In this document: one piece after another, positions 9,372 to 27,328 of the stretch
How positions within the stretch are numbered: position 1 is the first letter of the stretch
Layout of the letters: the number at the start of each line of letters is the position of its first letter
Assembly: GCA_022843705.1 (NCBI GenBank)
Contig: JALHND010000014.1
Coordinates: 1 to 40,492, forward strand
Length of the DNA: 40,492 nt
Reading direction: 5' to 3'
Source of the DNA: Burkholderiales bacterium
GTDB lineage: Bacteria > Pseudomonadota > Gammaproteobacteria > Burkholderiales > SG8-41
Position numbers and translations under genes: made by a program
The notes under the pieces: generated by a model
The model's input: the letters and a program-made list of their open reading frames with translations, nothing else
Database searches by the model: none
What the model was told of the DNA's origin: nothing

Positions 9372-9492
9372 AGCCCGAAGGGCGGCCCTGTTCAGTACCT
9401 GCCGCACCACGACGGTGCGCCACTATTCATGCATCCACCAAGCGATATCTATAAGTATTTGATTTAATTTATATTTTTTAGGATTGCCCGGG
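9372..9492. promoter_or_regulatory. AT-rich upstream region of the GntR-family gene
   Basis: This 121-base gap follows folD. It holds a 6-bp perfect hairpin (9403-9419, 5-base loop, no T-run), then a strongly AT-rich tract at about 9444-9482, unusual in this GC-rich window. The tract contains several possible -10 elements, but none has a convincing -35 at the right distance. It probably carries the promoter of the regulator gene. Confidence 0.4.
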
Positions 9493-10317
9493 ATGGCAGC
9501 TGGTACGGCTTATGCGTACATCCAGACTGCCATGGCGTCCGAGCCCAGCCCGTTTCCGTTTCCCGAACCCGCCGGCATGCATCTTCCGGTGCACGCCGAC
9601 GGGCGGCGGGTTCCCCTGCACGAACAGGTCTGCAACAGCCTGCGCGACCGCATCCTGTCGGGAGACCTCGCGCCGCACCAGCGCCTGCCCAGCGAAGCCT
9701 GCCTGATGCAGGCCTTCGGCGTCAGCCGGGTCACCGTGAGGCAGGGGCTCAAGGACCTGGCGGCCGAAGGGCTGGTCTACAGCCAGCAGGGCAGGGGCAG
9801 TTTTGTCAGCGCGCCGCATGCCACCTGCAATCTGAGCGCCTTGCTCGGTTTTCACGAATCCATGCAGGGCAAGCCCTTTGTTGCGGCCTCGCATGTGCGG
9901 TCAACCGGCGATGCGGCGGCGACGCGGGAAATCGCCGCGGCACTGAACCTGAAACGGGGCGACCCCGTGTTCGAGGTCAAGCGCATTCGCTGCCTGAATA
10001 CCCGTCCGGTATCCGTCGATCTCAGTTATTTCCCGCCGGACATCGGCGAGCGGCTGCGGAGCCAGGACCTCAACCAGGACATCTTTCCGCTGCTCGAGGC
10101 CCGGGGTATCGGCCTCGGCCGCTCGCGGCTGTGGATCGAGGCGCAGCCCTGTCCGGAGGAATTTGCCGCCGATCTTGCCGTCGAGCCGGGTGCACCGGTG
10201 CTGCGCCTGGCACGCCTGACCTACAGCAATTTCGACCGCCCGGTCGATTACGAACACCTCTATTGCCGCGGTGATTCGTACCAGTACAAGGTCGAACTGA
10301 GGCGGCGTCCCTTCTGA
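9493..10317 (+). CDS. GntR-family transcriptional regulator with UTRA domain
   Basis: This 274-residue regulator has an N-terminal winged helix (about 30-105, with PLHEQVCNSLRDRI and RLPSEACLMQAFGVSRVTV). A C-terminal UTRA ligand-sensing domain follows (about 118-270, with DPVFEVKRIR and DYEHLYCRGDSYQYKVEL). HutC/FarR-type members bind a small molecule through UTRA and leave the operator. The ATG at 9493 has an AGGA eight bases upstream. A later ATG at 9532 and a TTG at 9484 remain possible, and the first 25 or so residues are low in complexity. It is upstream of, and in the same direction as, the AprA-like operon and probably controls it. The effector is unknown. Confidence 0.9.
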   Translation: MAAGTAYAYIQTAMASEPSPFPFPEPAGMHLPVHADGRRVPLHEQVCNSLRDRILSGDLAPHQRLPSEACLMQAFGVSRVTVRQGLKDLAAEGLVYSQQGRGSFVSAPHATCNLSALLGFHESMQGKPFVAASHVRSTGDAAATREIAAALNLKRGDPVFEVKRIRCLNTRPVSVDLSYFPPDIGERLRSQDLNQDIFPLLEARGIGLGRSRLWIEAQPCPEEFAADLAVEPGAPVLRLARLTYSNFDRPVDYEHLYCRGDSYQYKVELRRRPF

Positions 10318-10527
10318 TCCGCCTGCCTGCGCCGGTGCAGTGCACGTCATTGCGGCCCCGCACTCCGATGGCGCGACCGGATTAATACAAGTCATCCCTC
10401 AGGTTTCCGGCGTCACGCGTCTGCGGCGACTCATCGGCGGCAGCGCTTGTATCGTGGCATGGCGGTTGCTCTATGACGGTCATGAGGCCGCAACCGGCTG
10501 TTCTCCTGAAGGGGGAAGGTTGAGGCG
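10318..10527. promoter_or_regulatory. intergenic region with candidate GntR half-sites
   Basis: No gene is visible in these 210 bases. Two HutC-like half-sites face each other: ATACAAG at 10385-10391 and CTTGTAT at 10446-10452, 54 bases apart. A perfect 11-base palindrome ATGACGGTCAT lies at 10473-10483. TTGTAT (10447-10452) followed 17 bases later by TCTATG (10470-10475) could be a weak promoter that overlaps the second half-site and the palindrome. This is the arrangement expected for a repressed promoter of the downstream operon, but no binding has been shown. Confidence 0.4.
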
Positions 10528-12291
10528 GTGCGGGACGAACCGGAGAGCAAGGTGAATATTCCAGAACCGATCATCATGGAAACCGACGTGCTGGTTGTCG
10601 GTGGCGGTACGGCGGGGCCGATGGCGGCAGTCAAGGCCAAGGAGAAAAATCCGAAGCTGCGGGTGATGCTGCTGGAGAAGGCCAACGTCAAGCGCAGCGG
10701 TGCCATCTCGATGGGCATGGACGGGCTCAACAACGCAGTGCTTCCCGGGCACGCCACGCCCGAGCAGTACACCAAGGAAATCACCATCGCCAACGACGGT
10801 ATCGTCAACCAGAAGACGGTATACGCCTACGCGACCAACAGCTATCGCACGATCGAGGAACTTGACCGCTGGGGGGTGAAGTTCGAGAAGGACGAGACCG
10901 GCGATTACGCGGTACGGAAGGTGCACCATCTCGGCAGTTATGTGCTGCCGATGCCCGAGGGGCATCACATGAAAAAGATCCTCTACCGCCAGCTGAAGCG
11001 CACCCGGGTGGAGGTCGTGAACCGCGTGGTGGCGACCCGTGTGCTGACCGACAGGCAGGGGCGTGCCGCGGGACTGATGGGTTTCGACTGCCGCACCGGA
11101 CAGTTCACGGTGATCCGCGCCAAGGCGGTGATCCTCTGTTGCGGCGCCGCCGGCCGTATCGGCCTGCCGACTTCGGGTTACCTGTTCGGCACCTACGAAA
11201 ATCCGACCAATGCCGGGGACGGTTACGCGATGGCCTATCACGCCGGTGCGGAGCTGGCGAACCTCGAGTGTTTCCAGATCAATCCGCTGATCAAGGACTA
11301 CAACGGCCCGGCCTGCGCCTACGTGACGGGTCCCTTCGGCGGCTACACCGCCAACGCCCACGGCGAACGCTTCATCGAGTGCGACTACTGGAGCGGCCAG
11401 ATGATGTGGGAGTTCTACAACGAGCTGGAAAGCGGCAAGGGGCCGGTGTTCCTGAAACTCGACCATCTCGCCGAAGAGACGATATCGAACATCGAAGTCA
11501 TCCTGCATACCAACGAAAGGCCCAGCCGCGGCCGTTTCCATGACGGCCGCGGCACCAACTACCGCAGCAAGATGATCGAGATGCACATATCCGAGATCGG
11601 TTTCTGCAGCGGCCACAGCGCCTCCGGTGTTTGGGTCAACGAAAAGGCCGAGACGACGGTGCCCGGCCTCTACGCCGCCGGAGACATGGCCAGCGTGCCG
11701 CACAACTACATGCTGGGAGCTTTCACCTACGGCTGGTTCGCCGGCGAAAATGCGGCCGTTTATTGCGCGGAGACCACGGCAGGCGAGGTTGATGATGCAC
11801 AGATCGCGGCGGAACATGCGCGGGTGATGGCGCCGCTGCAATGCGCCGACGGGATTCCGCCGAACCAGCTCGAATACAAGCTGCGGCGCATGGTCAACGA
11901 CTACCTGCAGCCGCCCAAGGCGACGCGGAAAATGGAACTGGGCCTTGAGCGGTTTGCCGAGATCGGCGAGGACATCCGGCAATTGAGCGCCGCCGACCCG
12001 CATGAACTGATGCGGGCGATGGAGGTGCAGCACATCCATGACTGCGCCAACATGGCCGCGCGTGCATCGCTGTTCCGCACCGAGAGCCGATGGGGGCTTT
12101 ATCACTACCGCGCCGATTTCCCCGAGCGCAACGATGCCGAGTGGTTCACCCACTGCCACCTGCGCAAATCCGCCGACGGAAAAATGGAAAGCATCAAGCG
12201 CCCCGTCGAGCCGTACATCCTGCCCCTTGATGACGAGGAAAAAACCGCCTACCAGCGGCTCCGCGTCGTCAAGGAGGCCTCCACCGTCTGA
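10528..12291 (+). CDS. AprA-like FAD-dependent reductase, flavoprotein subunit
   Basis: This 587-residue flavoprotein belongs to the fumarate reductase/succinate dehydrogenase/APS reductase superfamily. The FAD-binding loop VVGGGTAGPMAA is at about 23-34. KANVKRSGAISMGMDGLNN (about 51-69) closely resembles the equivalent stretch of AprA, the APS reductase alpha subunit, more than that of fumarate reductase. The second FAD region includes GLYAAGDMASVPHNY (about 380-394). There is no signal peptide, so it is cytoplasmic. The next gene encodes an AprB-like ferredoxin, so the pair resembles AprAB. True AprA is longer (above 620 residues), so this is a shorter paralogue with unknown substrate. GTG 10528 follows a GGAAGG site; GTG 10552, after GGAG, is equally possible. 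Confidence 0.85.
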   Translation: MRDEPESKVNIPEPIIMETDVLVVGGGTAGPMAAVKAKEKNPKLRVMLLEKANVKRSGAISMGMDGLNNAVLPGHATPEQYTKEITIANDGIVNQKTVYAYATNSYRTIEELDRWGVKFEKDETGDYAVRKVHHLGSYVLPMPEGHHMKKILYRQLKRTRVEVVNRVVATRVLTDRQGRAAGLMGFDCRTGQFTVIRAKAVILCCGAAGRIGLPTSGYLFGTYENPTNAGDGYAMAYHAGAELANLECFQINPLIKDYNGPACAYVTGPFGGYTANAHGERFIECDYWSGQMMWEFYNELESGKGPVFLKLDHLAEETISNIEVILHTNERPSRGRFHDGRGTNYRSKMIEMHISEIGFCSGHSASGVWVNEKAETTVPGLYAAGDMASVPHNYMLGAFTYGWFAGENAAVYCAETTAGEVDDAQIAAEHARVMAPLQCADGIPPNQLEYKLRRMVNDYLQPPKATRKMELGLERFAEIGEDIRQLSAADPHELMRAMEVQHIHDCANMAARASLFRTESRWGLYHYRADFPERNDAEWFTHCHLRKSADGKMESIKRPVEPYILPLDDEEKTAYQRLRVVKEASTV

Positions 12292-12302
12292 AGGGAACCG
12301 CA

Positions 12303-12536
12303 ATGACTTATGCCGTGCAACGCACCCGTGTCCCGGTTACCGTCGATGAGGAGAAATGCATCGCGCACAAGGGATGCACCGTCTGTGTCGATGTCTGCCC
12401 GCTCGACCTGTTGGCGATCGACATGCTGAAGGGCAAGGCCTACATGAAATACGACGAATGCTGGTACTGCATGCCCTGCGAGAAGGACTGCCCGACAGGC
12501 GCGGTGCACGTCGACATTCCCTACCTTCTGCGCTGA
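12303..12536 (+). CDS. AprB-like 2[4Fe-4S] ferredoxin subunit
   Basis: This 77-residue protein has two cysteine sets for [4Fe-4S] clusters: Cys19-x5-Cys25-x2-Cys28-x3-Cys32-Pro and Cys53-x2-Cys56-x2-Cys59-x3-Cys63-Pro. The widened first motif and the DECWYCMPCEKDCP segment resemble AprB, the electron-transfer subunit of APS reductase. The long C-terminal tail by which AprB wraps around AprA is absent. It lies 11 bases after the flavoprotein gene and almost certainly acts as its electron partner. A generic ferredoxin is the alternative. Confidence 0.88.
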   Translation: MTYAVQRTRVPVTVDEEKCIAHKGCTVCVDVCPLDLLAIDMLKGKAYMKYDECWYCMPCEKDCPTGAVHVDIPYLLR

Positions 12537-12549
12537 AGCGAGGCGAGCC

Positions 12550-13521
12550 ATGACTTCCATGCAAACCGCAGATGCCGCGCCCGGCGACCTGATCGCGCGC
12601 CTGGGTGATGCCGACGCCGAAGTGCGCCGCATTGCCGTGATGGAGCTGCCGTACTGCGATGAAGACGACATTCTGCCGCTGCTGCTGAAGGCGCTGGCGG
12701 ACGGCGATGCGCTGGTGCGTGCCGAAGCGGCAAAGGCAGTCGAGGGATTCGAGGAGCCCGAGGTGGTGACCGCGCTGATTGGCCTGCTGCATGACCCGGT
12801 GGAGGAGACGCGCCGCGCTGCCGCTGAAACCCTGTCTGAATTGAAGGACAGCAGCAACGGCGGCATTTTGCTGAAAGCGGCCGGTGATGCCGATCCGTTC
12901 GTGCTGGCGGCGGTGTTTCGCGCGCTGCGGCCCTTGCGTGTGCCCGACAGCCTGGCGCCGGCGCTGGCCAGCCTGGACCATCCGTCGCCGCAGGTGCGGC
13001 GTGAAGCCACCGGCGTGCTCGGTTACCTGAAACATGCCGGATCCCTCGGGCCGCTGACCCGGGTCGCGATGAATGATCCCGATCCGGAGGTGCGGCGCAT
13101 CGCCGTGGGGGCCCTGGGTTTTGCCACGGATGTCGAAGTCCTGCCGGCGCTGACCCATGCGCTGAGCGATACCTCGTGGCAGGTGCGGGAAGAGGCTGCC
13201 GGCACCCTGGGAAAACTCAAGCTTTCAGGCGCGGTGGATCACCTGATCACGGTGATGGCTGACCGTTACTGGCAGGTCAGGGTGCGCGCGGCGCGCAGCC
13301 TGGGACGGCTGAAGGCCGTTTCGGCCCTGGAGGTGTTGAGTGCCGCTCTGAAACACGAAATCAGCAACCTGCGCAAGGAAGCCGCGATTGCGCTGGGCGA
13401 GATCGGAGATCCGAGGGCGATTCCGCTGCTCGAGGATGCGCTGAAGGATCCAGATCCCGATGTGCGCAAGCTGGCGCAGCTCGCGCTGAAGCAGATCCAG
13501 ATCAGCAACCAGCAGCGCTGA
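12550..13521 (+). CDS. HEAT-repeat protein (PBS lyase-like)
   Basis: This 323-residue protein is built almost entirely from about ten HEAT-like repeats of roughly 31 residues. The pattern recurs as D-x-(D/N)-P-x-V-R-x-x-A-x-x-x-L-G-x-L, for example DPDPEVRRIAVGALGF and DRYWQVRVRAARSLGRLK. Such superhelical proteins, including the phycobilin-lyase CpcE group, bind other proteins; no catalytic motif is visible. Its place between two iron-sulfur genes suggests a scaffold or maturation factor for the AprAB-like complex. That is inference from position only. The ATG at 12550 is 13 bases after the previous stop. Confidence 0.88.
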   Translation: MTSMQTADAAPGDLIARLGDADAEVRRIAVMELPYCDEDDILPLLLKALADGDALVRAEAAKAVEGFEEPEVVTALIGLLHDPVEETRRAAAETLSELKDSSNGGILLKAAGDADPFVLAAVFRALRPLRVPDSLAPALASLDHPSPQVRREATGVLGYLKHAGSLGPLTRVAMNDPDPEVRRIAVGALGFATDVEVLPALTHALSDTSWQVREEAAGTLGKLKLSGAVDHLITVMADRYWQVRVRAARSLGRLKAVSALEVLSAALKHEISNLRKEAAIALGEIGDPRAIPLLEDALKDPDPDVRKLAQLALKQIQISNQQR

Positions 13522-13530
13522 GGAGTGGCC

Positions 13531-13857
13531 ATGGCTTACGTCGTCACCGAACCCTGCGTCAACTGCCGCTACACGGATTGCGTGGAAGTCTGTCCGGTCG
13601 ACTGCTTTCACCAGGGGCCGAATTTCCTGGTGATCAATCCGGAAGGCTGCATCGACTGCACGCTGTGCGTCGACGAATGCCCGGTCAATGCGATCTGCGA
13701 GGCATCCGAGGTGCCGCCGGGACAGGAACATTTCATCGAGCTGAACGCCCGTTATGCGGCGGTGTGGCCGGTGATCACCGACCGGACGGAGCCGCTGCCG
13801 ACGGCGGAGGCCTGGGCCGGCGTGAGCGGCAAGGTTGCCGAATTGAGGGAAGCGTAG
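13531..13857 (+). CDS. fdxA: seven-iron ferredoxin (FdxA type)
   Basis: This 108-residue [3Fe-4S][4Fe-4S] ferredoxin is very like Azotobacter FdI. Allowing for the initiator Met, the cysteines fall at the same positions: 9, 17 and 50 for the 3Fe cluster, and 21, 40, 43 and 46 for the 4Fe cluster. Cys12 and Cys25 are extra. The tail [19 protein letters not shown] is also typical. It is a low-potential cytoplasmic electron carrier. ATG 13531 has AGGAG five bases upstream, so the earlier in-frame GTG at 13525, which overlaps that site, is rejected. Placement inside the AprA-like operon suggests a dedicated redox partner. Confidence 0.95.
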
Positions 13858-13954
13858 GACATGACGCGGAAACACAGAACACGCGTCGCCGGAGGAGGCA
13901 TGCAGGGTGCAGTCGGTTTTGCCTGATCGTCAATCTAATTTCCGGGGAGCAGCC

Positions 13955-15418
13955 ATGAGCGGAATCAAAGCGGATGCAGGGGCAGTCAAAACGGTTTTCG
14001 GGGGCATTTGCAGGACTTTGGGCATGGCCTTGCCGGTGTTGTGCCTTGTTGCGGGCGTGGCGCAGGCGCAGACCACGATCAAGATCGGAATAGGCACCCA
14101 GAACACGACAACCAACACGGTGACCGGCGGAATCGTCATCAAGGAGCTCAAACTTTTCGAGAAACACCTGCCGAAAACGGGTAAATACGCCGGCGTCAAA
14201 TACGAGTTCGACTGGCAGAACGCAACCTCGGGCCCGCCCATCACCAACGGCATGATGGCGGACAAGATCCACATCGGCATGATGGGCGACTACCCGCTGC
14301 TGGTGGCCGGTGCCACCGGGCAGGCGACAAAAAACGAGACCCAGCTGGTGGCGATCATCGCCTACAACCAGTTCGGTGCCGGCAACGGTGTCGTGGTGCA
14401 CAAGGACTCGCCGTATTTCGAGCTGTCCGACCTCAAGGGCAAGCTGGTGTCGGTGCCGTTTGGTTCCGCCGCGCACGGCATGATGCTCCAGGCCATGCAG
14501 GCACGCGGATGGCCGGAGAACTTCTGGAATCTGGTCAGCCAGTCCCCCGAGGTCGGCACCACCAACCTGCAGGAGAAGCGCATCGACGGCCATGGCGATT
14601 TTGTGCCATTCGCCGAACTGCTGCCGTTCCGCGGATTCGCGCGCAAGATCTTCGACGGCGCCGAGACCAAGATCCCGACCTTCCACGGCGTGGTCATCCG
14701 CAAGGATTTTGGCGAAAAATACCCCGAAATCGTGGTCGCCTACATCAAGGCCCTGATGGAAGCCAACGACTGGGTGCGCAAGAACCCGAAGCTGGCCATG
14801 GAAAAAATCGAGGAGTGGACCAAGATCGAGAAGGAAGTCGCCTACATGTTCCTCGGGCCCAGCGGAGCACACACCCTGGATCCGACCATCAAGCCGAAAT
14901 GGGTGGAAACGATCGGCATTGTCCACGGCGTATTGCAGAAAATGGGCCGGGTCAAGGAGTTCGATGCACAGGCCTGGGTCAACGAAAGCTACCTGCGCCA
15001 GGCCTTCAAGGAGCTGAAACTCGACTATGACAAGCAGAAAGCGTCGTTCTCGGGATACGAAATCACCGGCAAAGACGCGCTTTGCAACGCGCCGATCAGG
15101 CAGCCGCGTGAAGCAGGGCAGGTCTGGCTGGCTGGCGGTGACATCATCCCTTTCAGCTCCACGGTATGCACGCTGTCCGGCGTCAGGAAGTACGAAGCGG
15201 AAGGCAGGAAAATCGGCGTTGTGTATGTCTTTGACCGTTCGTTGGGGATCAAGATGTTCGCCGACAAGGCCTTTTATGCGCTGAATGCCGGCGATCCGAA
15301 GAAACCGCAGATCGTGCCTTTCCTGCTGAAGAAGGATGCCGAGGCGCATGTTGCCAAGAGCGGCGGAAAGCTTGCGAGCTATACCGAAGCGCTCGCGGCA
15401 GCACCGGTTGTGAAGTGA
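13955..15418 (+). CDS. NitT/TauT-type ABC substrate-binding protein with NosL-like C-terminal domain
   Basis: This 487-residue protein has a signal peptide (hydrophobic core about 22-36, likely cleavage after Ala38 in AQA). Residues about 40-330 form a periplasmic binding domain of the SsuA/NrtA/TauA class, with GPPITNGMMADKIHIGMMGD and the SDLKGKLVSVPFGS hinge region. It is about 150 residues longer than usual. The extra part (about 377-475) resembles NosL, the copper-binding nitrous oxide reductase accessory protein; it includes GVVYVFDRS, MFADKAFYAL and KKDAEAHVAKSGGKLASY. NosL's N-terminal Cys-Gly-Met copper site is not visible. ATG 13955 follows GGGGAG. The solute is unknown. Confidence 0.88.
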   Translation: MSGIKADAGAVKTVFGGICRTLGMALPVLCLVAGVAQAQTTIKIGIGTQNTTTNTVTGGIVIKELKLFEKHLPKTGKYAGVKYEFDWQNATSGPPITNGMMADKIHIGMMGDYPLLVAGATGQATKNETQLVAIIAYNQFGAGNGVVVHKDSPYFELSDLKGKLVSVPFGSAAHGMMLQAMQARGWPENFWNLVSQSPEVGTTNLQEKRIDGHGDFVPFAELLPFRGFARKIFDGAETKIPTFHGVVIRKDFGEKYPEIVVAYIKALMEANDWVRKNPKLAMEKIEEWTKIEKEVAYMFLGPSGAHTLDPTIKPKWVETIGIVHGVLQKMGRVKEFDAQAWVNESYLRQAFKELKLDYDKQKASFSGYEITGKDALCNAPIRQPREAGQVWLAGGDIIPFSSTVCTLSGVRKYEAEGRKIGVVYVFDRSLGIKMFADKAFYALNAGDPKKPQIVPFLLKKDAEAHVAKSGGKLASYTEALAAAPVVK

Positions 15419-15426
15419 GGCTGTAA

Positions 15427-16347
15427 ATGAGTACGGTACAGGCTTTGCGCAGGGAAGAGCCCGCTGCTGAAAGCCGGGATGGCGTCCAGGCCGTCGCGGT
15501 GAAAGCGGCAGCCCCTGTACCCGAAGTGCGCCTGCAGATCGTGCACCCTGCCTTGCGCTGGGTGCACGACAACGGGGTGAGCATGATCCTTTGGGCAATC
15601 TCGATCGCAATCCTGCTCGGAGTTTGGTACCTCGGCACCCGCTACAAGGTGGAGCTTTATATCCGCTTCACCAACGTGCCCACACCGCTAGAAGTGTTCC
15701 GGAAAATTGCCGAAGTCAACGAATCCGGAAGGTTTCTCTACCACATCGGCATCAGCGTGCGCCGCATCCTGATCGGTTTCTGCATTGCGGTTGTTCTCGG
15801 CTCTGCCCTCGGACTGCTGATCGGCCGCTACCGTGTCGCGCGTGATCTGCTGTTTCCGATCTGCGAGGTATTGCGCCCGATACCGGCGATTGCATGGGTG
15901 CCGATGGCAATCATGCTGTGGCCGACCAACGAGGTCAGCATCGTGTTCATCACCTTCCTCGGATCGTTTTTTCCGATACTGCTCAATACGGTCCATGGCG
16001 TGCATTCGATCGATCCGGTGCTGATCCGCGCCGCACGTTGCCTCGGTGCCAACGAGTTCCGGCTGTTTACCAACGTCATTCTGCCCGGTGCAATGCCGCA
16101 CATGTTCACCGGATTTTCGGTGGGGATGGGGGTTGCCTGGGTATCGCTGATCGCGGCCGAAATGATTTCCGGGCAATTCGGCGTCGGCTATTTCACCTGG
16201 GAGGCCTACTCGCTGGTGAGCTACGCTGAAATCGGACTCGGCATGATCACCATCGGCGTGCTCGGGCTGGTATGCAGCGGAGTCATCCAGGTCGTCGGCC
16301 GGATGCTGATGCCCTGGTCATCTTACGGCGGCGGAGGCAAGAAATGA
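15427..16347 (+). CDS. ABC transporter permease, NitT/TauT (SsuC-like) family
   Basis: This 306-residue inner-membrane permease has a long Ala/Glu-rich cytoplasmic N-terminus (about 1-48). About six membrane helices follow, starting at residue 52 (SMILWAISIAILLGVWYLG). The cytoplasmic coupling loop with the EAA motif is clear at about 200-220 (RAARCLGANEFRLFTNVILPG). VLRPIPAIAWVPMAIMLW is typical of SsuC/TauC/NrtB permeases. It starts 8 bases after the binding-protein gene and overlaps the ATPase gene by four bases (ATGA), so the three form one importer. Confidence 0.94.
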   Translation: MSTVQALRREEPAAESRDGVQAVAVKAAAPVPEVRLQIVHPALRWVHDNGVSMILWAISIAILLGVWYLGTRYKVELYIRFTNVPTPLEVFRKIAEVNESGRFLYHIGISVRRILIGFCIAVVLGSALGLLIGRYRVARDLLFPICEVLRPIPAIAWVPMAIMLWPTNEVSIVFITFLGSFFPILLNTVHGVHSIDPVLIRAARCLGANEFRLFTNVILPGAMPHMFTGFSVGMGVAWVSLIAAEMISGQFGVGYFTWEAYSLVSYAEIGLGMITIGVLGLVCSGVIQVVGRMLMPWSSYGGGGKK

Positions 16348-17204
16348 GCGAACAATTGAGGGGTGCAATCAGCATCAGCGATCTGGGTGTCATCTTCAAT
16401 TCGGGAGGCAACACACTGCAGGCAGTAAGTTCCGCAACCATGGACGTCAAGCCCGGGGAATTCGTTTCGCTGATCGGCCCATCGGGCTGCGGAAAGTCGA
16501 CGCTGCTCAATATTGTCGCGGGTTTCGTCAACCCGACCTCGGGCAACGCGCTGGTTGATGGCGCCGCCATCAAGGGGCCGGGATCGGACCGCGGCGTGGT
16601 ATTCCAGCAATACTCGCTGTTTCCGTGGCTGTCGGTGCGCAGGAATGTCGAATTCGGCCTGAAGATGAAAGGCATACCCGCGGCGCAAAGGGTGCCGCAG
16701 GCGCGCACGCTGCTGGGCCTCGCGGGTTTGCTGGCCTTTGAAAACCACTACCCGGACCAGCTTTCGGGCGGCATGAAGCAGCGGGTCGGCATCGTGCGCG
16801 CGCTGGCCACCAGCCCGCAGGTGCTGCTGATGGACGAGCCTTTCGGTGCGCTGGACGCGCAGACCCGGGTGGTGATGCAGGAAATCCTCACCAACATGTG
16901 GCAGCAGTTCCGCATCTCGGTGCTGTTCGTCACCCACGACATCGAAGAATCGATTTTCCTGTCGGACAAGATCTATGTCATGACGGCACGGCCGGGCCGC
17001 ATCAAGGCCGAAATCACGGTGCCGCTGCCGCGCCCGCGCAAGCCGGAGATGACCTACACACCGGAGTTCATCGGGCTGGTGCAGCAGCTGAAGGCGCTGA
17101 TTCGCGAAGAGTCGCTGGCTGCGATGGGATCGGAGCTGAAGGACGGCGGCCTGTCGGGTTTCGGCATGGAAGTCGGCCCGCAGGGCGTGGAGAAGGTTGT
17201 CTGA
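16344..17204 (+). CDS. ABC transporter ATP-binding protein, NitT/TauT (SsuB-like) family
   Basis: This 286-residue ATPase powers the importer. It has Walker A GPSGCGKST, the Q-loop in VVFQQYSLFPW, the signature LSGGMKQR, Walker B VLLMDEPFGALD and the switch histidine in FVTHDIEES. The C-terminal 45 or so residues run past the core domain without a recognisable regulatory domain. The ATG is fixed by the ATGA overlap with the permease stop and by the family N-terminus. Confidence 0.95.
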   Translation: MSEQLRGAISISDLGVIFNSGGNTLQAVSSATMDVKPGEFVSLIGPSGCGKSTLLNIVAGFVNPTSGNALVDGAAIKGPGSDRGVVFQQYSLFPWLSVRRNVEFGLKMKGIPAAQRVPQARTLLGLAGLLAFENHYPDQLSGGMKQRVGIVRALATSPQVLLMDEPFGALDAQTRVVMQEILTNMWQQFRISVLFVTHDIEESIFLSDKIYVMTARPGRIKAEITVPLPRPRKPEMTYTPEFIGLVQQLKALIREESLAAMGSELKDGGLSGFGMEVGPQGVEKVV

Positions 17205-17205
17205 A

Positions 17206-17520
17206 ATGAGAAAGGACATGCCGGAACCGCCGCACGCCCTGGAGGTCTGCAACCATCACGCCACCGGCATGCTTGAAATCGCCTGGTCCGATGGTGTCAC
17301 GGGCATCCTCGCCCACCGGGTGCTGCGCGAATCCTGCCGCTGCGCCCATTGCACGGCGGAGATGCGCAGGGGGCGGCCGGTCCGCGCCGGGGACGGCACA
17401 CGCATCGTCAGTATCGAGGCGCTGGGAGGGAGCATGCTGCAGCTGGTCTTCAACGACGGCCACCAGCGCGGGATTTATCCCCTGGCTTATCTGCGCTCGT
17501 TGGCGGCGCCTGGCAATTGA
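17206..17520 (+). CDS. DUF971 (GBBH-like N-terminal domain) protein
   Basis: This 104-residue protein has the DUF971 fold, also found as the N-terminal domain of gamma-butyrobetaine hydroxylase. Cys44-x-Cys46-x2-Cys49 with a later histidine (NDGHQRGIYP) matches the zinc site of that domain. Stand-alone copies sit near iron-sulfur and ApbC/Mrp genes in many bacteria, and their role is unclear. It starts one base after the ATPase stop and is probably the last gene of the operon. It could help assemble the complex or bind an oxidised ligand, but nothing in the sequence decides. Confidence 0.88.
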   Translation: MRKDMPEPPHALEVCNHHATGMLEIAWSDGVTGILAHRVLRESCRCAHCTAEMRRGRPVRAGDGTRIVSIEALGGSMLQLVFNDGHQRGIYPLAYLRSLAAPGN

Positions 17521-17794: not shown

Positions 17795-20700
17795 ATGGAC
17801 ACCCCGGTTGATATAATTTCCGCTTTGCCCAATTCCCGGAAAACCTTGAATCAAACCACGGATATTTTCCTCCGCGCCGGCTTTTCCTTCGCGGACCTGT
17901 ATACACGCGACGGTCTGCTGCGGCTGGACCAGGCGTTCATCGACGGTCTTGCGGAGGCGGACGCGGCGCTGCATGCGCAGCTGCTGGCGGCGCGCCGGGC
18001 GGCAAACCCGCTTGAGGCCAAGGCGGAGTCGGAGCTGCTGCTGGCGCTGGCCCCGCATCTGGATGACTTCATCGCCCGGTTCTTCGGCATCGAGGCCGAA
18101 GTCCGCGCGCTGTCGTCACGCCACCAGGAACTGGCGCCCCTCTACCGGGTCAAGCGCCTGTTCGTGCAGCGCAAGGCCATGCACAAATACAAGTCCGAAG
18201 CAGCCGCGGCAATGGACGGGGATGCGGTGGGTGCAAAACTGGCCGCGCTGTTCGGCGAGGACCTGACCGAACTCGCCTTTGCCCGCCACGTCGAGCTGTG
18301 GCAACAGGACGAACAGGCGCATGCCGGGGCGCTGGACCTGGCGCTGCAGTACGCCGCCTGGGCCGCGCATACCGGAGCCGGCCGTGCCCGACACCATGCC
18401 GGTGTGCTGTTCAAGGCCCCGCACAAGCTTGATGTGCAGAACCTGGTGCCGGTACAGACCGATGCCGGCAGGGGTTACACCGAACACCGCTTCGACGTGT
18501 CGAAGCTGCGGCTGCGCGAGGGGTTCAGGCTGACCGATCGCGGCACCGACCTTGCCGGCGCGCTTGACGAAGCCAATTACTGCATCTGGTGCCACGAGCA
18601 GGGCAAGGATTCCTGTTCCAAGGGCCTGCGGGAGAAGGGGGCCAGCGGCCGCGGTGCGGCATCCTTCAAAAAATCGCCTTTCGGCATCACGCTGGCCGGC
18701 TGTCCGCTGGAAGAGAAAATTTCAGAGTTCCACAAGGCCAAGACTGAAGGGCTGGTGATCGGCGCGCTGGCGATCATCGCCGTCGACAACCCGATGGTCG
18801 CGGCAACCGGACACCGCATCTGCAACGACTGCATGAAGGCCTGCATCTACCAGAAGCAGGAGCCGGTCAACATTCCGCAGGCGGAGACGCGGACGCTGAA
18901 GGATGTGCTAGAACTGCCCTGGGGCTTCGAGATCTACAGCCTGCTGACACGCTGGAATCCGCTGAACCTGCGCAATCCGCTGCCGAAAGCGCCGACCGGA
19001 AAACGCGTGCTGGTGGTGGGCATGGGGCCGGCGGGGTTCTCGCTGTCGCATTTCCTGATGAATGACGGTCACACGGTGGTCGGCATCGACGGCCTGAAAA
19101 TCGAACCCTTGCCGCCGGAGCTGTCGGGTGTCGATGCGGCAGGCGGGCGGGTGCCGTTCAAGCCGGTCAGGGATGTGCATGAATTGTATGAGTCGCTCGA
19201 CGAACGGGCGATGGCCGGCTTCGGCGGTGTCGCCGAATACGGCATCACCGTGCGCTGGGACAAGAATTTCCTGAAAATCATCCGCCTGCTGCTCGAGCGC
19301 CGTGCGCAGTTTGCGCTGTTCGGCGGCGTGCGTTTCGGCGGCACGGTCACCGCGGAAGACGCTTTCGCACTGGGCTTCGACCACGTCGCACTGGCGATTG
19401 GTGCCGGCCGCCCGACGGTGCTGGACATGCCCAACGGGCTGGCCCGTGGCGTGCGCACCGCATCGGACTTCCTGATGGCGCTGCAGCTGACCGGCGCGGC
19501 GAAGGCCGACTCGATTGCCAACATGCAGCTGCGGCTGCCGGTGGTGGTTATCGGCGGCGGCCTTACCGCGATCGACACCGCCACCGAATCGCTGGCCTAC
19601 TATCCGTTGCAGGTCGAAAAATTCCTGCTCCGCCACGAAACCCTGGTCCGGGAGCGGGGCGAGGAAGCCGTGCAGAAGGCATGGAGTGGGGAGGAGCGCA
19701 AAATCGCCTGCGAATTCATCGCCCATGCGCAGGCGATCCGCGCCGAGCGCGCCGCGGCGGCGCAGGAGGGGCGCGAACCGCGCATCCTGCAACTGCTGCA
19801 GTCCTGGGGCGGCGCCACGCTGGCCTATCGCAAGCGGATGGTCGACAGCCCGTCCTACACGCTGAACCACGAGGAAGTGCACAAGGCGCTGGAGGAAGGC
19901 ATCACCTTCGCCGAATGCCTGACGCCGCTGGCCATCGAGACCGACCAGTACGGCCATGCCAGCGCGCTGAAGCTTGCCGTGCAGGCGAAGGGTGAGGACG
20001 GCAGCTGGCAGGATGCGGGGCAGGTGACGCTGCCGGCGCGGGCGATCCTGATTGCCGCCGGCACCCAGCCCAATACCGTGCTGGCACGGGAAGATGCGGA
20101 CACTTTTGTGCTTGACGGCCGCTATTTCCGTGCCGTCGATGCCGACGGCCATCCGGTGGCGGCGGAGAAATCGATTTCCAAGCCGGAAACGGTCAACGTG
20201 CTGCTGGCGAAACGCGCCGACGGCCGCTGCATCAGCTATTTCGGCGACGTGCATCCCTCGTTCTTCGGCAACGTGGTCAAGGCCATCGGCAGTGCCAAGC
20301 AGGGTTACCCGGTGGTCAGCAGCGTGCTTGGCCGGATCAGCCCTGCGGCCGCAGTCGATGACATGGTTTTCCTCGGCGCGCTGCAGCGCGAGCTGCGGGC
20401 CACGGTGCATGAAGTGAAGCGGCTGACGCCGACCATCGTCGAGGTGATCCTGCATGCGCCGCTGGCGGCGCGGCGTTTCCGGCCCGGACAGTTCTACCGG
20501 CTGCAGAATTTCGAGTCGCGCGCGCCGCAGAGTTGCGGCAGCACCCTGGCGATGGAGGGCCTGGCGCTGACCGGCGCATGGACCGATCCCGGGCGCGGCC
20601 TGCTGTCGACCATCGTGCTCGAGATGGGCGGTTCCAGTGACCTTTGCGCCGAGCTGAAGCCCGGCGAACCGGTGATCCTGATGGGCCCCACCGGAGCACC

Positions 20701-21358
20701 CACCGAGATTCCGTCGGGCGAAACCGTGGTGCTGGCGGGTGGCGGGCTCGGCAATGCGGTGCTGTTCTCGATCGGGCAGGCGATGCGCAAGGCCGGCTGC
20801 CGGGTGCTTTATTTCGCCGGTTACAAGGGCATGGCCGATCGTTATCACGTCGAAAACATCGAAGCGGCGAGCGATGTCATCATCTGGTGCTGCGATGAAA
20901 AACCCGGCTTCACGCCATCGCGTCCCGGCGATCGCAGTTTCACCGGCAATATCGTGCAGGCGATGCTGGCCTATGCGTCGGGCGAACTCGGCACGCAGGC
21001 CATACCCTTCAAGGACGCCGACCGCATCATCGCCATCGGTTCCGACAAGATGATGGCGGCGGTTGCGCGGGCGCGGCACGAGGTGCTGAAGCCTTACCTG
21101 AAAGCGCAGCACCATGCGATCGGCTCGATCAACTCGCCGATGCAGTGCATGATGAAGGAGGTCTGCGCGCAGTGTCTGCAGCCGCATGTCGACCCGCAGA
21201 CCGGCAGGACGAGTTATGTGTTTTCCTGCTTCAACCAGGATCAGCCACTGGATTGTGTCGACTGGAAGGCGCTCGACCAGCGGCTGAAACAGAACTCGAC
21301 CCAGGAAAAGCTGACGGCGCAGTGGCTTAATCGCTGCCTGGCTGCGCTCAGGGCTTAG
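17795..21358 (+). CDS. large NfnAB-like iron-sulfur flavoprotein oxidoreductase
   Basis: This 1187-residue protein has four parts. (1) A helical N-terminal region (about 1-250) that I do not recognise. (2) A GltD/NfnB-type iron-sulfur domain with Cys263, 266, 274, 303, 343, 346 and 350, including CIWC, GCPLEEKI and GHRICNDCMKAC. (3) An FAD/NAD(P) disulfide-reductase-like domain with VLVVGMGPAGF near 409 and VVVIGGGLTAID at 583-594. (4) A ferredoxin-NADP reductase/PyrK-like module (about 863-1095) ending in a cysteine cluster at 1118, 1124, 1127 and 1145. Parts 2-4 match, in one chain, the two subunits of NfnAB, which couples NADH, NADPH and ferredoxin. The function is inferred. ATG 17795 is uncertain. 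Confidence 0.85.
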   Translation: MDTPVDIISALPNSRKTLNQTTDIFLRAGFSFADLYTRDGLLRLDQAFIDGLAEADAALHAQLLAARRAANPLEAKAESELLLALAPHLDDFIARFFGIEAEVRALSSRHQELAPLYRVKRLFVQRKAMHKYKSEAAAAMDGDAVGAKLAALFGEDLTELAFARHVELWQQDEQAHAGALDLALQYAAWAAHTGAGRARHHAGVLFKAPHKLDVQNLVPVQTDAGRGYTEHRFDVSKLRLREGFRLTDRGTDLAGALDEANYCIWCHEQGKDSCSKGLREKGASGRGAASFKKSPFGITLAGCPLEEKISEFHKAKTEGLVIGALAIIAVDNPMVAATGHRICNDCMKACIYQKQEPVNIPQAETRTLKDVLELPWGFEIYSLLTRWNPLNLRNPLPKAPTGKRVLVVGMGPAGFSLSHFLMNDGHTVVGIDGLKIEPLPPELSGVDAAGGRVPFKPVRDVHELYESLDERAMAGFGGVAEYGITVRWDKNFLKIIRLLLERRAQFALFGGVRFGGTVTAEDAFALGFDHVALAIGAGRPTVLDMPNGLARGVRTASDFLMALQLTGAAKADSIANMQLRLPVVVIGGGLTAIDTATESLAYYPLQVEKFLLRHETLVRERGEEAVQKAWSGEERKIACEFIAHAQAIRAERAAAAQEGREPRILQLLQSWGGATLAYRKRMVDSPSYTLNHEEVHKALEEGITFAECLTPLAIETDQYGHASALKLAVQAKGEDGSWQDAGQVTLPARAILIAAGTQPNTVLAREDADTFVLDGRYFRAVDADGHPVAAEKSISKPETVNVLLAKRADGRCISYFGDVHPSFFGNVVKAIGSAKQGYPVVSSVLGRISPAAAVDDMVFLGALQRELRATVHEVKRLTPTIVEVILHAPLAARRFRPGQFYRLQNFESRAPQSCGSTLAMEGLALTGAWTDPGRGLLSTIVLEMGGSSDLCAELKPGEPVILMGPTGAPTEIPSGETVVLAGGGLGNAVLFSIGQAMRKAGCRVLYFAGYKGMADRYHVENIEAASDVIIWCCDEKPGFTPSRPGDRSFTGNIVQAMLAYASGELGTQAIPFKDADRIIAIGSDKMMAAVARARHEVLKPYLKAQHHAIGSINSPMQCMMKEVCAQCLQPHVDPQTGRTSYVFSCFNQDQPLDCVDWKALDQRLKQNSTQEKLTAQWLNRCLAALRA
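17812..17817 (+). promoter_or_regulatory. TATAAT hexamer inside the first codons of the 1187-residue gene
   Basis: A perfect -10 hexamer lies 17 bases inside the longest reading frame, without a good -35 partner. If it is used, translation must start later, for example at the in-frame TTG at 17846, which has GGAA upstream. If not, the ATG at 17795 stands. The motif's position a few dozen bases before a usable start is suggestive. Confidence 0.3.
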
Positions 21359-24945: not shown

Positions 24946-25017
24946 AAATCCGGAGCAAACCGGCCATCCGGATGGTCACATGTTGGAATGCAACGGCTGC
25001 TTTTTCGTCTCCGGCTT

Positions 25018-25044
25018 GAACTTAAATACCTGCCGCTGGTCACT
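25018..25044 (+). promoter_or_regulatory. candidate sigma-E-dependent promoter of rpoE
   Basis: GAACTT (25018-25023), a 16-base spacer and TCACT (25040-25044) match the sigma-E pattern GAACTT-N16-TC. It lies 120 bases upstream of the rpoE ATG. A sigma-70-like TATACT at 25091-25096, with a poor -35, could give a second basal promoter. Autoregulation is the norm for rpoE operons. The 24946-25164 gap holds no other gene I can support. Confidence 0.65.
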
Positions 25045-25164
25045 GCAGACGACGCTTGGAGCGGATGTTTCATGCAGCCGTTCAGGCAGTTATACTGCGG
25101 CGCCTGTCAGGGCGGCGATTTTGCCGGCCGGGCGCAGGACTGCAGTATCGGGGACCGGATAATA

Positions 25165-25764
25165 ATGAGCGATCGCGAAGTCGATCAGCAGCTGGTGGAG
25201 CGCGTGCAGCAGGGTGACAAGCGCGCATTTGACCTGCTGGTGAGCAAATACCAGCGCAAGCTGGGCCGGCTGCTGTCGCGGTTTATCCGGGATCCCAGCG
25301 AGGTCGAGGATGTGACGCAGGAGGCGTTCATCAAGGCGTACCGGGCTTTGCCGGGTTTCCGCGGCGACAGCGCCTTTTACACGTGGCTGTACCGCATCGG
25401 CATCAATACGGCGAAAAACCATCTGGTGGCGATGGGGCGGCGGGCGCCGACCAGCACCGAACTCGATGCCGAGGAGGCGGAAGGGGTGGAGGCCGGCGAG
25501 CAGTTGCGGGACCTGAACACCCCGGAAAACCAGATGATGAGCCGGCAGGTGGGTGACACAGTGAACCAAACCCTGCAGGAGTTGCCTGAGGAGTTGAGAA
25601 CGGCGATTACCCTCCGTGAAATCGAGGGGCTGAGTTATGAGGAAATTGCGGCGGTGATGCAGTGTCCGGTAGGTACGGTGCGCTCCCGGATATTCCGGGC
25701 GCGCGAGGCGGTGGCGGAGAAATTGCGGCCCTTGCTTGGCACGGGCAAGGACAGGAGATGGTGA
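25165..25764 (+). CDS. rpoE: RNA polymerase sigma factor RpoE (AlgU)
   Basis: This 199-residue ECF sigma factor of the RpoE/AlgU group directs transcription of envelope-stress genes. Region 2 (about 10-90) contains FDLLVSKYQRKL, DVTQEAFIKAYRAL and FYTWLYRIGINTAKN. Region 4 (about 130-190) contains LPEELRTAITLREIEGLSYEEIA and GTVRSRIFRARE. The ATG at 25165 gives the standard MSDREVDQQLVERV start; the frame is open upstream but has no family match there. It is followed after one base by its anti-sigma gene. Confidence 0.97.
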   Translation: MSDREVDQQLVERVQQGDKRAFDLLVSKYQRKLGRLLSRFIRDPSEVEDVTQEAFIKAYRALPGFRGDSAFYTWLYRIGINTAKNHLVAMGRRAPTSTELDAEEAEGVEAGEQLRDLNTPENQMMSRQVGDTVNQTLQELPEELRTAITLREIEGLSYEEIAAVMQCPVGTVRSRIFRAREAVAEKLRPLLGTGKDRRW

Positions 25765-25765
25765 G

Positions 25766-26284
25766 ATGGAACATGTATCGGCGTTGATGGACGGCGAAGC
25801 GGGCGGGCAGGAAGCGCACCAGGCGCTGCTGCGTCTCGGGGATACTGCGGAGGCGCGGGAATCCTGGGACACGTATCACCTGATCGGTGATGTCATGCGG
25901 GGCGAGGCGGTCCGCGGTGTTGACGTTTCCCGGCGTGTTTCCGAGGCGCTGTCCCGGGAGCCGACGGTCCTGGCGCCTGCACGGACCCGCAGGGCCGGCA
26001 AACCCCTCGCTTTTGCCTTGTCCGCCGCGGCATCGGTTTCCGCAGTTGCGGTGGTCGGCTGGATGGCTTTCTCCTCAAGCAATATCGCGAATCCGCCGGC
26101 GGAAATTGCGCGCGCCACGGTTCCTGCCGCGATTCAGGCCGAGCCGCCGCTGGTCAGCGTGCCCAATGACGGCCAGATGAACGAATATCTGCTTGCCCAC
26201 CAGGGCATATCGCCGAGTACCAGCCTGCAGGGTGTGGCGCCCTACATCCGCACCATTTCGATAGCGCCCTCCGCCGACCGGTAA
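25766..26284 (+). CDS. rseA: anti-sigma-E factor RseA (MucA)
   Basis: This 172-residue inner-membrane protein should hold RpoE inactive until proteolysis releases it. The N-terminal anti-sigma domain (about 1-60) has SALMDGEA and WDTYHLIGDVMRGE, characteristic of RseA. One membrane span follows at about 80-100 (FALSAAASVSAVAVVGWMAF), then a periplasmic tail. The ATG is one base after the rpoE stop, so the two are tightly coupled. The sequence past the membrane span is poorly conserved in the family, so the call rests on the N-terminus and gene order. Confidence 0.93.
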   Translation: MEHVSALMDGEAGGQEAHQALLRLGDTAEARESWDTYHLIGDVMRGEAVRGVDVSRRVSEALSREPTVLAPARTRRAGKPLAFALSAAASVSAVAVVGWMAFSSSNIANPPAEIARATVPAAIQAEPPLVSVPNDGQMNEYLLAHQGISPSTSLQGVAPYIRTISIAPSADR

Positions 26285-26291
26285 CACCCCC

Positions 26292-27272
26292 ATGAAATTC
26301 TGGTGGATCCTTGTTCTTGGTTTTGCGCCGGGGGCCGTAGCGGCAAACGGAGAATCACGCGAAGCCCTGGCCATGCTCGAGAAGATGGCCGAAGCGGGCC
26401 GGAAGGTGAATTACACCGGAACATTCATGTTCCAGCATGGCAAGCAGGTTGAAACCTCCAGCATCGCCCATTTCGTCAATCCCTCCGGTGGGGTATTGGA
26501 GCGCCTGGAAACGCTGGATGGCCCGGCGCGTGAAATCATACGCAACAATGACCAGGTGACCTGCTACATCCCGGGCAGCAAGGTCGTGCTGGTCGATCCC
26601 CGCGGCTCCCGCCAGTTTCCGATCCGTGTCGAACAGATCCAGGAAATCGTCCAGCATTACAGCGTCGTGAAAGGCGGGCTCGACCGGGTTGCCGGCTTGC
26701 AGTGCCAGTGGGTGACCCTGGTTCCGGCCGACACGCTGCGCTACACCCGGCGCTTCTGCGCCGAACTCAACACGGGACTGCCCCTGCAGGCGCGCACCCT
26801 GAACGACAAGAACGAGACGCTGGAGGCATTTGCGTTCTCGACGCTGGATATCGGCGGCTCCTTCCGCCGTGAGCTGGTGCAGTCCAAATATGCGGCGATA
26901 AGTGCCAGGCAGAACTGGCGTGTCGACCGGTCCGCGCTGACGACGGGCGACAGCGGGGATTCCGGCTGGGTGGTGCAGTCCCTGCCGCCGGGTTTCCGCA
27001 AGCTGATGGAACTGAGGCGGTCCATGGTGGGCAAAAAAGGCACGGCGTCGCACCTGGTGTTTTCCGACGGCCTTGCCGCAGTTTCCATATTCATCGAGCC
27101 CGGGGTCCGTACGGACAGGAAACAGACGCTCCGGCACCAGGGCGCGATGCACATTTACAGCCAGCCGGTTGCCGGGCATACCGTGACCATACTTGGCGAA
27201 ACACCGGCGGAAACCGTGATGCAATTTGCGCGCTCGCTGGAACCCAGGGCATCCACCACGGTGCAGCGCTGA
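26292..27272 (+). CDS. rseB: sigma-E regulatory periplasmic protein RseB (MucB)
   Basis: This 326-residue periplasmic protein has a signal peptide (about 1-18, MKFWWILVLGFAPGAVAANG) and the two-domain MucB/RseB fold. The N-terminal lipid-sensing domain has MLEKMAEAGRKVNYTGTFMF. The C-terminal part (about 210-326) has LPPGFRKL and SDGLAAVSIFIEP. RseB binds RseA and protects it from DegS-type cleavage until lipid or LPS signals displace it. It lies 7 bases after rseA. Confidence 0.95.
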   Translation: MKFWWILVLGFAPGAVAANGESREALAMLEKMAEAGRKVNYTGTFMFQHGKQVETSSIAHFVNPSGGVLERLETLDGPAREIIRNNDQVTCYIPGSKVVLVDPRGSRQFPIRVEQIQEIVQHYSVVKGGLDRVAGLQCQWVTLVPADTLRYTRRFCAELNTGLPLQARTLNDKNETLEAFAFSTLDIGGSFRRELVQSKYAAISARQNWRVDRSALTTGDSGDSGWVVQSLPPGFRKLMELRRSMVGKKGTASHLVFSDGLAAVSIFIEPGVRTDRKQTLRHQGAMHIYSQPVAGHTVTILGETPAETVMQFARSLEPRASTTVQR

Positions 27273-27328
27273 GCGCGGCTTTTTCGTATTCATTCTCCAG
27301 ACCCTTGCGTTACCAGGAAAGGCTGAAC

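Follow-up and report, generated by a model that had tools for sequence, protein, structure and literature searches.

The stretch of DNA analysed here (the window) comprises 40,492 nucleotides from a Burkholderiales bacterium of the SG8-41 lineage (GenBank assembly GCA_022843705.1, contig JALHND010000014.1, positions 1 to 40,492, forward strand). Within it lies an operon built around a flavoprotein related to AprA, the flavin adenine dinucleotide (FAD) subunit of adenosine 5'-phosphosulfate (APS) reductase. A GntR/UTRA regulator is followed by eight tightly spaced genes, coding for this flavoprotein, a short AprB-like ferredoxin, a HEAT-repeat protein, the ferredoxin FdxA, the three components of an ATP-binding cassette (ABC) importer and a DUF971 protein. 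We tentatively propose, with somewhat less than even confidence, that the operon is a substrate-inducible unit for the uptake and reduction of a small oxidized sulfur anion as a sulfur source. The genes are widely sequenced and are thus not a new sequence family but a functionally unassigned one, a variant of the APS-reductase kind. An initial annotation of the window had called the operon undescribed-looking. This holds for its function, as no publication on the cluster was found among the matches listed from the open-licence literature, whereas the family is already named in NCBIfam and is common.

Relationship of the flavoprotein to APS reductase

The flavoprotein (10528..12291, + strand) belongs to NF006131/PRK08275, with a score of 1114 bits (cut-off 587) over positions 9-576 of the 577 in the model. 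The name of that family is fumarate reductase/succinate dehydrogenase flavoprotein subunit. NF010374/PRK13800 is the HEAT-fused form, a flavoprotein with trailing HEAT repeats; here the window flavoprotein scores 896.8 bits, below the cut-off of 1196, and the separate HEAT protein of the window matches the end of the model (80.2 bits). For both families the listing gives a name alone, without operon, substrate or role. In the PDB the best match is 8a8o, the alpha subunit of the 3'-phosphoadenosine 5'-phosphosulfate (PAPS) reductase of the archaeon Methanothermococcus thermolithotrophicus (E 5.7e-63), followed by AprA (1jnr, E 3.5e-47) and then by SdhA (E 7.6e-24), and a profile built from 22 family members returned the same order. 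In a tree of 44 rows (21 from the flavoprotein family, 3 AprA) the family forms a clade (support 90/90) that is sister to AprA (96/86). The host SdhA (TIGR01816, 939.9 bits), a TfrA-like flavoprotein from L086 and a probable AsfA fall apart from the family and AprA taken together (99/98). Three outgroup rows have long branches, so the tree tells on which side the family lies rather than its exact depth.

The active site was compared by alignment to the AprA of the host, with AprA residue numbers counted along the PDB-search alignment. The equivalents of A. fulgidus AprA Asn74 and His398 are retained as Asn68 and His363, and those of Arg265, Trp234 and Phe448 are Leu254, Tyr223 and Tyr394; the equivalent of Gln145 is also replaced. 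We take Asn74, His398, Arg265 and Trp234 to have substrate-site roles in AprA. The aligned Asn, His, Leu254, Tyr223 and Tyr394 positions are invariant across the 22 family members, and 8a8o, unlike the window protein, keeps Arg at the Arg265 column. The alignment gives the impression of an APS-reductase catalytic corner that was retained while the substrate side was rebuilt; because the Arg265 equivalent is lost, though those of Asn74 and His398 are kept, APS itself is an unlikely substrate. As for SdhA, its HPTG histidine is absent (Asn252 stands there) and the region of its substrate arginine is gapped. The AlphaFold model of the flavoprotein (pLDDT, a per-residue confidence score, of 61) was of too low quality to be used.

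These comparisons dispose of three candidate identities. An ordinary fumarate reductase or SdhA was rejected on the missing substrate residues and the tree position, the flavoprotein grouping with AprA and not with SdhA, as the initial annotation had anticipated. True AprAB (1jnr, 2fja) shares with the module an FAD subunit paired with a two-cluster ferredoxin, but was rejected on the substrate-site residues and on scores: the flavoprotein reaches 183.1 bits against TIGR02061 (cut-off 641.75) and the ferredoxin 41 against TIGR02060 (cut-off 135.65), as opposed to 1088 and 207.3 for the AprA and AprB of the host. Moreover, the beta subunit of the module is short, no sat or qmo lies alongside, and a dedicated importer and a HEAT protein are present. 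True AsfA was rejected on an identity of 25% over part of the sequence and on its place outside the AprA-side clade. The view that the module is akin to AprAB and yet stands outside the standard sulfur pathway is thus borne out by residues, tree and gene co-occurrence alike.

Spread and variants of the module

The family is common, with at least 591 confirmed stretches in genome contigs and 54 plasmid records, among which P. phymatum does not figure; a protein-level comparison with phage records produced three matches, two of them named Acinetobacter phage. Among 61 genomes searched, the host included, 12 hold a flavoprotein above the cut-off, which points to a patchy distribution; genera with the module include Burkholderia and Pseudomonas. 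Co-occurrence was assessed in 89 loci, namely the best 80 of the at least 591 stretches (L001-L080, close relatives at 74-93%) and 11 plasmid loci, minus L005 and L060 with their short flanks. The script's gene calls are crude open reading frame (ORF) calls, and one neighbour cluster, c7, looks like antisense ORFs. The flavoprotein, AprB-like ferredoxin and HEAT genes occur together in all 89 loci and are linked beyond chance. A GntR homologue is present in 81/89, the binding protein, permease and ATPase together in 69/89, and DUF971 within 10 kb in 77/89. FdxA lies beside the module in only 9. The rare co-occurrence that the initial annotation had entertained is therefore not what these loci display; its eight-gene set exists as one unit, to which a ninth gene that it omitted, for a 1187-residue oxidoreductase (below), also belongs in this lineage.

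The variant forms of the module bear on the roles of its parts. In Tsukamurella, a GntR gene, a ferredoxin and ABC genes accompany an 893-residue fusion of flavoprotein and HEAT protein (NF010374, 1568 bits against the cut-off of 1196; HEAT_2, 94.8 bits). As HEAT repeats are fused to the flavoprotein both here and in the NF010374 model, the HEAT protein would be a partner of the flavoprotein. Plasmids of Pseudanabaena, Leptolyngbya and Nostoc carry the flavoprotein, ferredoxin and HEAT genes, and then Mrp/NBP35 in the place of DUF971. Since Mrp/NBP35 is an iron-sulfur (Fe-S) carrier family, its replacement of DUF971 in three cyanobacterial loci suggests that DUF971 serves Fe-S clusters. The Nostoc plasmid has five genes between flavoprotein and ferredoxin (L149, 11980-21411); HAD hydrolases, a methyltransferase, a GNAT protein and a VOC protein stand there, with an amidase after them, and the inserted genes may be a substrate-processing extension. 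In Burkholderia lata (L009) the module is without an importer of its own, and loci of this kind point to the enzyme as the core, with the importer optional.

The operon, its operator and its proposed electron supply

In the window the regulator, of the HutC type, is an ORF running from a TTG at 9484 to 10317 on the + strand, as are the eight genes that follow and the 1187-residue gene behind them, with in-frame ATGs at 9493 and 9532; PF00392 and PF07702 are both above their cut-offs. Downstream of the flavoprotein come the 77-residue AprB-like ferredoxin of 2x[4Fe-4S] type (Fer4_7; 12303..12536), from which the AprB tail is missing, the HEAT-repeat protein (HEAT_2, PF13646, 235 bits; 12550..13521), and FdxA, a ferredoxin of the seven-iron type (NF045490, 149.6 bits, cut-off 135; 13525..13857). 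Then follow the periplasmic binding protein (13907..15418), the ABC permease (BPD_transp_1, PF00528; 15427..16347), the ABC ATPase (ABC_tran, PF00005; likely 16344..17204, in an ORF that opens at 16272) and the DUF971/GBBH-like_N protein (PF06155, 65.2 bits; 17197..17520). Neighbouring genes are separated by 11, 13, 3, 49 and 8 bases in turn, and with an ATPase start at 16344 the last two junctions overlap, by 4 and 8 bases. Place, strand, order and family labels thus all agree, by ORFs, Pfam and NCBIfam, with the regulator and eight tightly spaced genes originally described. Scans for sigma-70 promoters and terminators found no excess over shuffled sequence. Beyond the module the window turns to an ordinary housekeeping stretch, with rpoE, an rseB-like gene and a Do-family protease (24988-28732), and lepA and a signal peptidase further on.

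At up to one mismatch, 65 of 91 loci have the palindrome ACTTGTNNNNACAAGT in the 1.3 kb preceding the flavoprotein; a single further site occurs elsewhere in 1.9 Mb, and the reversed pattern gave no site at the same setting. Allowing two mismatches raises the counts to 79/91 loci and 11 sites elsewhere, whereas the reversed pattern then gives 30 sites overall and is found in 4 loci. The usual place of the palindrome is before GntR, but it stands directly before the flavoprotein in L023, where GntR has no match, and in L028, L050, L052, L059, L066 and L087, where the GntR-flavoprotein gap is longer. A genome-wide scan with ACTTGTYATRACAAGT at one mismatch covered 39 genomes or records, from 40 loci preselected for having the site with L065 left out, and yielded 40 sites: one in each of 38, and two in the metagenome-assembled genome (MAG) G086, before two module copies. 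With the pattern reversed, a single site (read on both strands) turned up, in 1/39 genomes. All 40 sites are taken as module sites because every selected locus contains a site of its own and the extra one was checked separately. As the operator occurs solely at module copies, the regulator appears, from this sequence pattern, to have a single target operon in these 39 genomes or records, and no wider GntR regulon was found across them. The two copies in G086 (L145 and L146) are non-identical, with identical operators, and may stem from two strains binned together.

The window has no full palindrome at up to two mismatches; it has two half-sites instead, common to three congeners. One, TTAATACAAGT (10382..10392, + strand), lies in the GntR-flavoprotein gap, is invariant in the window, L001, L002 and L141, and equals the right half of a site in L003. 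The other, CTTGTATCGTGG (10446..10457, + strand), is a half-site of opposite orientation whose 12 bases are identical in the same four sequences. In Rhizobium, Sinorhizobium, Mesorhizobium, Bradyrhizobium and two Methylobacterium plasmid copies, a Crp/Fnr gene lies nearby in place of GntR.

The binding protein scores 108.6 bits against TIGR01728, below the cut-off of 163.5. In its predicted model (pLDDT 87) it resembles TauA/SsuA, which make up all of the top eight Foldseek matches in the PDB (16-22% identity); Thi5, nitrate and bicarbonate proteins come after them. With PF00528 and PF00005 above cut-off, this modelled TauA/SsuA fold places the importer in the NitT/TauT type. The nearest NCBIfam models for the ATPase, all below cut-off, are SaoA/TauB/NtrCD, and a SaoA/SaoP importer was dropped because the scores (262.3 against 360 for the ATPase, 154 against 295 for the permease) are far below the cut-offs. 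The C-terminal NosL-like domain of the binding protein (about residues 399-494) is a marginal match (PF05573, 24.9 bits against a cut-off of 24.0; PDB NosL, E 0.027). The copper ligands of NosL are presumably conserved Cys and Met residues. In a 36-row alignment no invariant or near-invariant Cys or Met follows residue 330, and copper binding by this tail was rejected for that reason.

Behind DUF971, after a gap of 274 bases, lies the gene for a 1187-residue Nfn/GltD-like oxidoreductase of the NAD(P)H:ferredoxin type (17795..21358). Stretches of the protein match both subunits of NfnI, an NADH-dependent ferredoxin:NADP oxidoreductase, in the PDB (E 3.9e-12 and 4.6e-9), and also the electron-transfer subunit of dihydroorotate dehydrogenase; against the GltD-like NF005128 it scores 820.7 bits, below the cut-off of 1072. 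The gene accompanies FdxA in 7 of the 9 FdxA loci; in an eighth, L001, it is cut by the contig end, and in the ninth, from Methylobacterium, a ferredoxin-NADP reductase (FNR) comes after FdxA in place of the 1187-residue gene. It is absent from all 80 loci without FdxA. In A. caldus its homologue comes directly after fdxA, and in L045 and L058 the homologue precedes a DUF971 gene that lies behind it, just beyond the 10 kb limit. In view of the NfnI likeness, the linkage to FdxA and these placements, we propose that the 1187-residue protein is the electron supply of the module in this lineage.

Candidate substrate and competing readings

Genes of sulfur metabolism recur around the module: TauD, luciferase-type monooxygenases, extra SsuA-type binding proteins, encapsulin 2A, mercaptopropionate dioxygenase and rhodanese. 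Enrichment was assessed in 15 genomes, the first one or two listed loci per named genus. This set includes the MAG locus L070, and excludes L079 (a second Herbaspirillum), the MAG-only Paucimonas (L036) and Halothiobacillus (L058), and unnamed MAGs. The counts draw on 150 of 154 luciferase-type and 150 of 195 SsuA matches, with the 12 module binding proteins removed. Genes for TauD, luciferase-type or SsuA-family proteins were counted up to 10 kb from the module in 4/15 genomes (0.78 expected, P 0.006), within 15 kb in 5/15 (1.11 expected, P 0.0034), within 20 kb in 6/15 (1.43 expected, P 0.0016) and within 30 kb in 6/15 (2.04 expected, P 0.0098). TauE/SafE and YeiH-type exporters adjoin two of the three cyanobacterial copies (Pseudanabaena and Leptolyngbya), and homoserine acetyltransferase and sulfhydrylase genes (methionine/cysteine) lie near the Nostoc copy. 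A type 2A encapsulin (SrpI-like) together with a class-V aminotransferase of the cysteine desulfurase type shares the locus of the module, about 20 kb, in L034, L029, L043, L048, L054 and L056.

The host itself has a dissimilatory-type APS reductase elsewhere: on another contig (L134, 6605-12305, G000:C51) sat, aprA (622 residues) and aprB all score above their cut-offs. With a NIR_SIR gene of the sulfite/nitrite reductase type also present, the host could make use of sulfite. A 279-residue gene behind this aprB has no family match. A second AprA-like/AprB-like pair of 578 and 102 residues lies at L133 (8031-10056, G000:C19), beside a regulator that reads as AraC-like by sequence, a TctA gene and a CzcE-like protein. 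Most congeners have matches of this class, which fall into a clade of their own outside the grouping of AprA with the window flavoprotein family.

On the reading we favour, the solute is probably an oxidized sulfur anion, which would enter through the TauA/SsuA-like importer. The Nfn-like protein would take electrons from NAD(P)H and hand them to FdxA, from which they would reach the AprB-like ferredoxin and then the AprA-like FAD. The N5 of the reduced FAD would attack the sulfur of the sulfo group, the remainder of the substrate would be expelled, and sulfite would be freed, much as has been proposed for APS and PAPS reductase. For the latter, the available part of the published account proposes an attack of FAD N5 on sulfur to give FAD-sulfite, with catalytic residues retained (PMC10322725). 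The HEAT protein would be the structural partner of the flavoprotein, DUF971 (Mrp/NBP35 in cyanobacteria) would load the Fe-S clusters, and GntR, which appears to govern solely this operon, would be released by the substrate or a product. Given that the N5 mechanism requires a leaving group, a plain alkanesulfonate is a less likely substrate than an S-sulfo compound (R-S-SO3-), an aryl sulfate or an activated sulfonate; and given that the unit carries or recruits enzymes of the NAD(P)H:ferredoxin type, reduction is likelier than oxidation. The earlier suggestion that a solute is imported and then either reduced or oxidized is thereby refined to the probable reduction of an oxidized sulfur anion. 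We would be more doubtful of its most specific form, an AprAB-derived, HEAT-stabilized and oxygen-independent sulfo-group reductase under a one-target repressor, which frees sulfite from an imported sulfonate, sulfate ester or S-sulfo compound.

Several observations weigh against reductive sulfur uptake. The binding protein is missing in 20/89 loci and an ATPase match in 14/89, so that import by the module's own ABC system is not essential. The organosulfur families were picked post hoc, after the neighbours had been inspected, and their enrichment is weak within 50 kb (6/15 genomes, 3.14 expected, P 0.07), a distance at which 9/15 genomes have none of these genes. TauE is not clearly enriched (1/15 genomes at up to 15 kb, where a hand count gives an expectation of about 0.46). 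The loss of Arg265 could imply quite different chemistry, the FNR- or Nfn-type partners might equally drain electrons, and FdxA or the 1187-residue gene adjoins the module in a minority of loci. The regulator, too, is GntR or, in alphaproteobacteria, Crp/Fnr, and not a known sulfur-starvation regulator.

Several of these points lend themselves to a rather unlikely alternative, in which the same architecture handles a non-sulfur substrate and the flavoprotein reduces an imported unsaturated, nitro or heterocyclic anion. The lost arginine and the nine genomes without organosulfur genes would fit it, as would the HutC-type regulator, the GNAT and amidase genes adjoining the Nostoc and Methylocystis copies, and the breadth of the NMT1-type importer family, which also takes pyrimidines, nitrate and others; Thi5, nitrate and bicarbonate proteins are indeed next in the fold list. 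However, the substrate residues of fumarate reductase are absent, TauA/SsuA are nearest to the binding protein in fold, and sulfur genes recur by module copies in more than one phylum. We regard it as improbable that the flavoprotein and ferredoxin leave the substrate untouched and only relay electrons to a monooxygenase whose gene lies elsewhere, the role ascribed to asfRABC. The resemblance is one of layout: asfRABC, a system for aryl-sulfonate desulfonation, joins an FAD reductase, a small ferredoxin and SsuA-type uptake under a local regulator, and the available parts of two reports (PMC4267179, PMC2864759) describe the asfA/asfB reductase-ferredoxin pair, with importer and binding protein, as needed for the use of aromatic sulfonates. 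Luciferase-type or TauD-type genes near some module copies could supply the oxygenase. Yet the conserved unit contains none, and in the nine genomes just mentioned one would have to lie further off. The flavoproteins are only distantly related, the probable C. metallidurans AsfA (E 8.5e-8) falling, on a long branch, outside the AprA-side clade. The asf regulator is of the LysR type, as opposed to GntR, and those parts of the asf literature describe no HEAT, DUF971 or Nfn-like component.

In the reverse direction, the complex would oxidize either sulfite or an organosulfur compound in reduced form, and NAD(P) would take up the electrons drained by the ferredoxin chain, but this we consider very improbable. 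Dissimilatory APS reductase is described as reversible in the available part of the source (PMC10322725), and the host does carry sat-aprAB. Against this, neither a membrane partner nor a quinone partner like Qmo is part of the unit, and a ferredoxin with an NAD(P)H enzyme fits reduction. Moreover, the module occurs commonly in genera like Burkholderia and Pseudomonas, whose members are mostly heterotrophs. Reductive release of sulfite also has a precedent in the archaeal PAPS reductase, the closest solved sequence to the flavoprotein, which puts the AprA fold to assimilatory use. That enzyme differs from the module in acting on PAPS, its genes co-occur with those for ATP sulfurylase and APS kinase, and the part of its description at hand mentions neither an importer nor a HEAT protein (PMC10322725).

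Most of the enzymes known to desulfonate compounds for bacterial sulfur supply require oxygen, and the module may let bacteria strip sulfite from an oxidized sulfur compound without it. The bulk of soil sulfur is organic, according to the available part of one account (PMC4267179). If our proposal is right, a common module on the sulfite-making APS-reductase fold would be a concrete candidate for reductive sulfur release, and a flavoprotein family that databases label as fumarate reductase would gain a function. The single operator per genome makes the ligand of the regulator directly searchable. A sulfo-group reductase, present in proteobacteria, cyanobacteria and actinobacteria, would add a third reaction to the reduction of APS and of PAPS on the APS-reductase fold.

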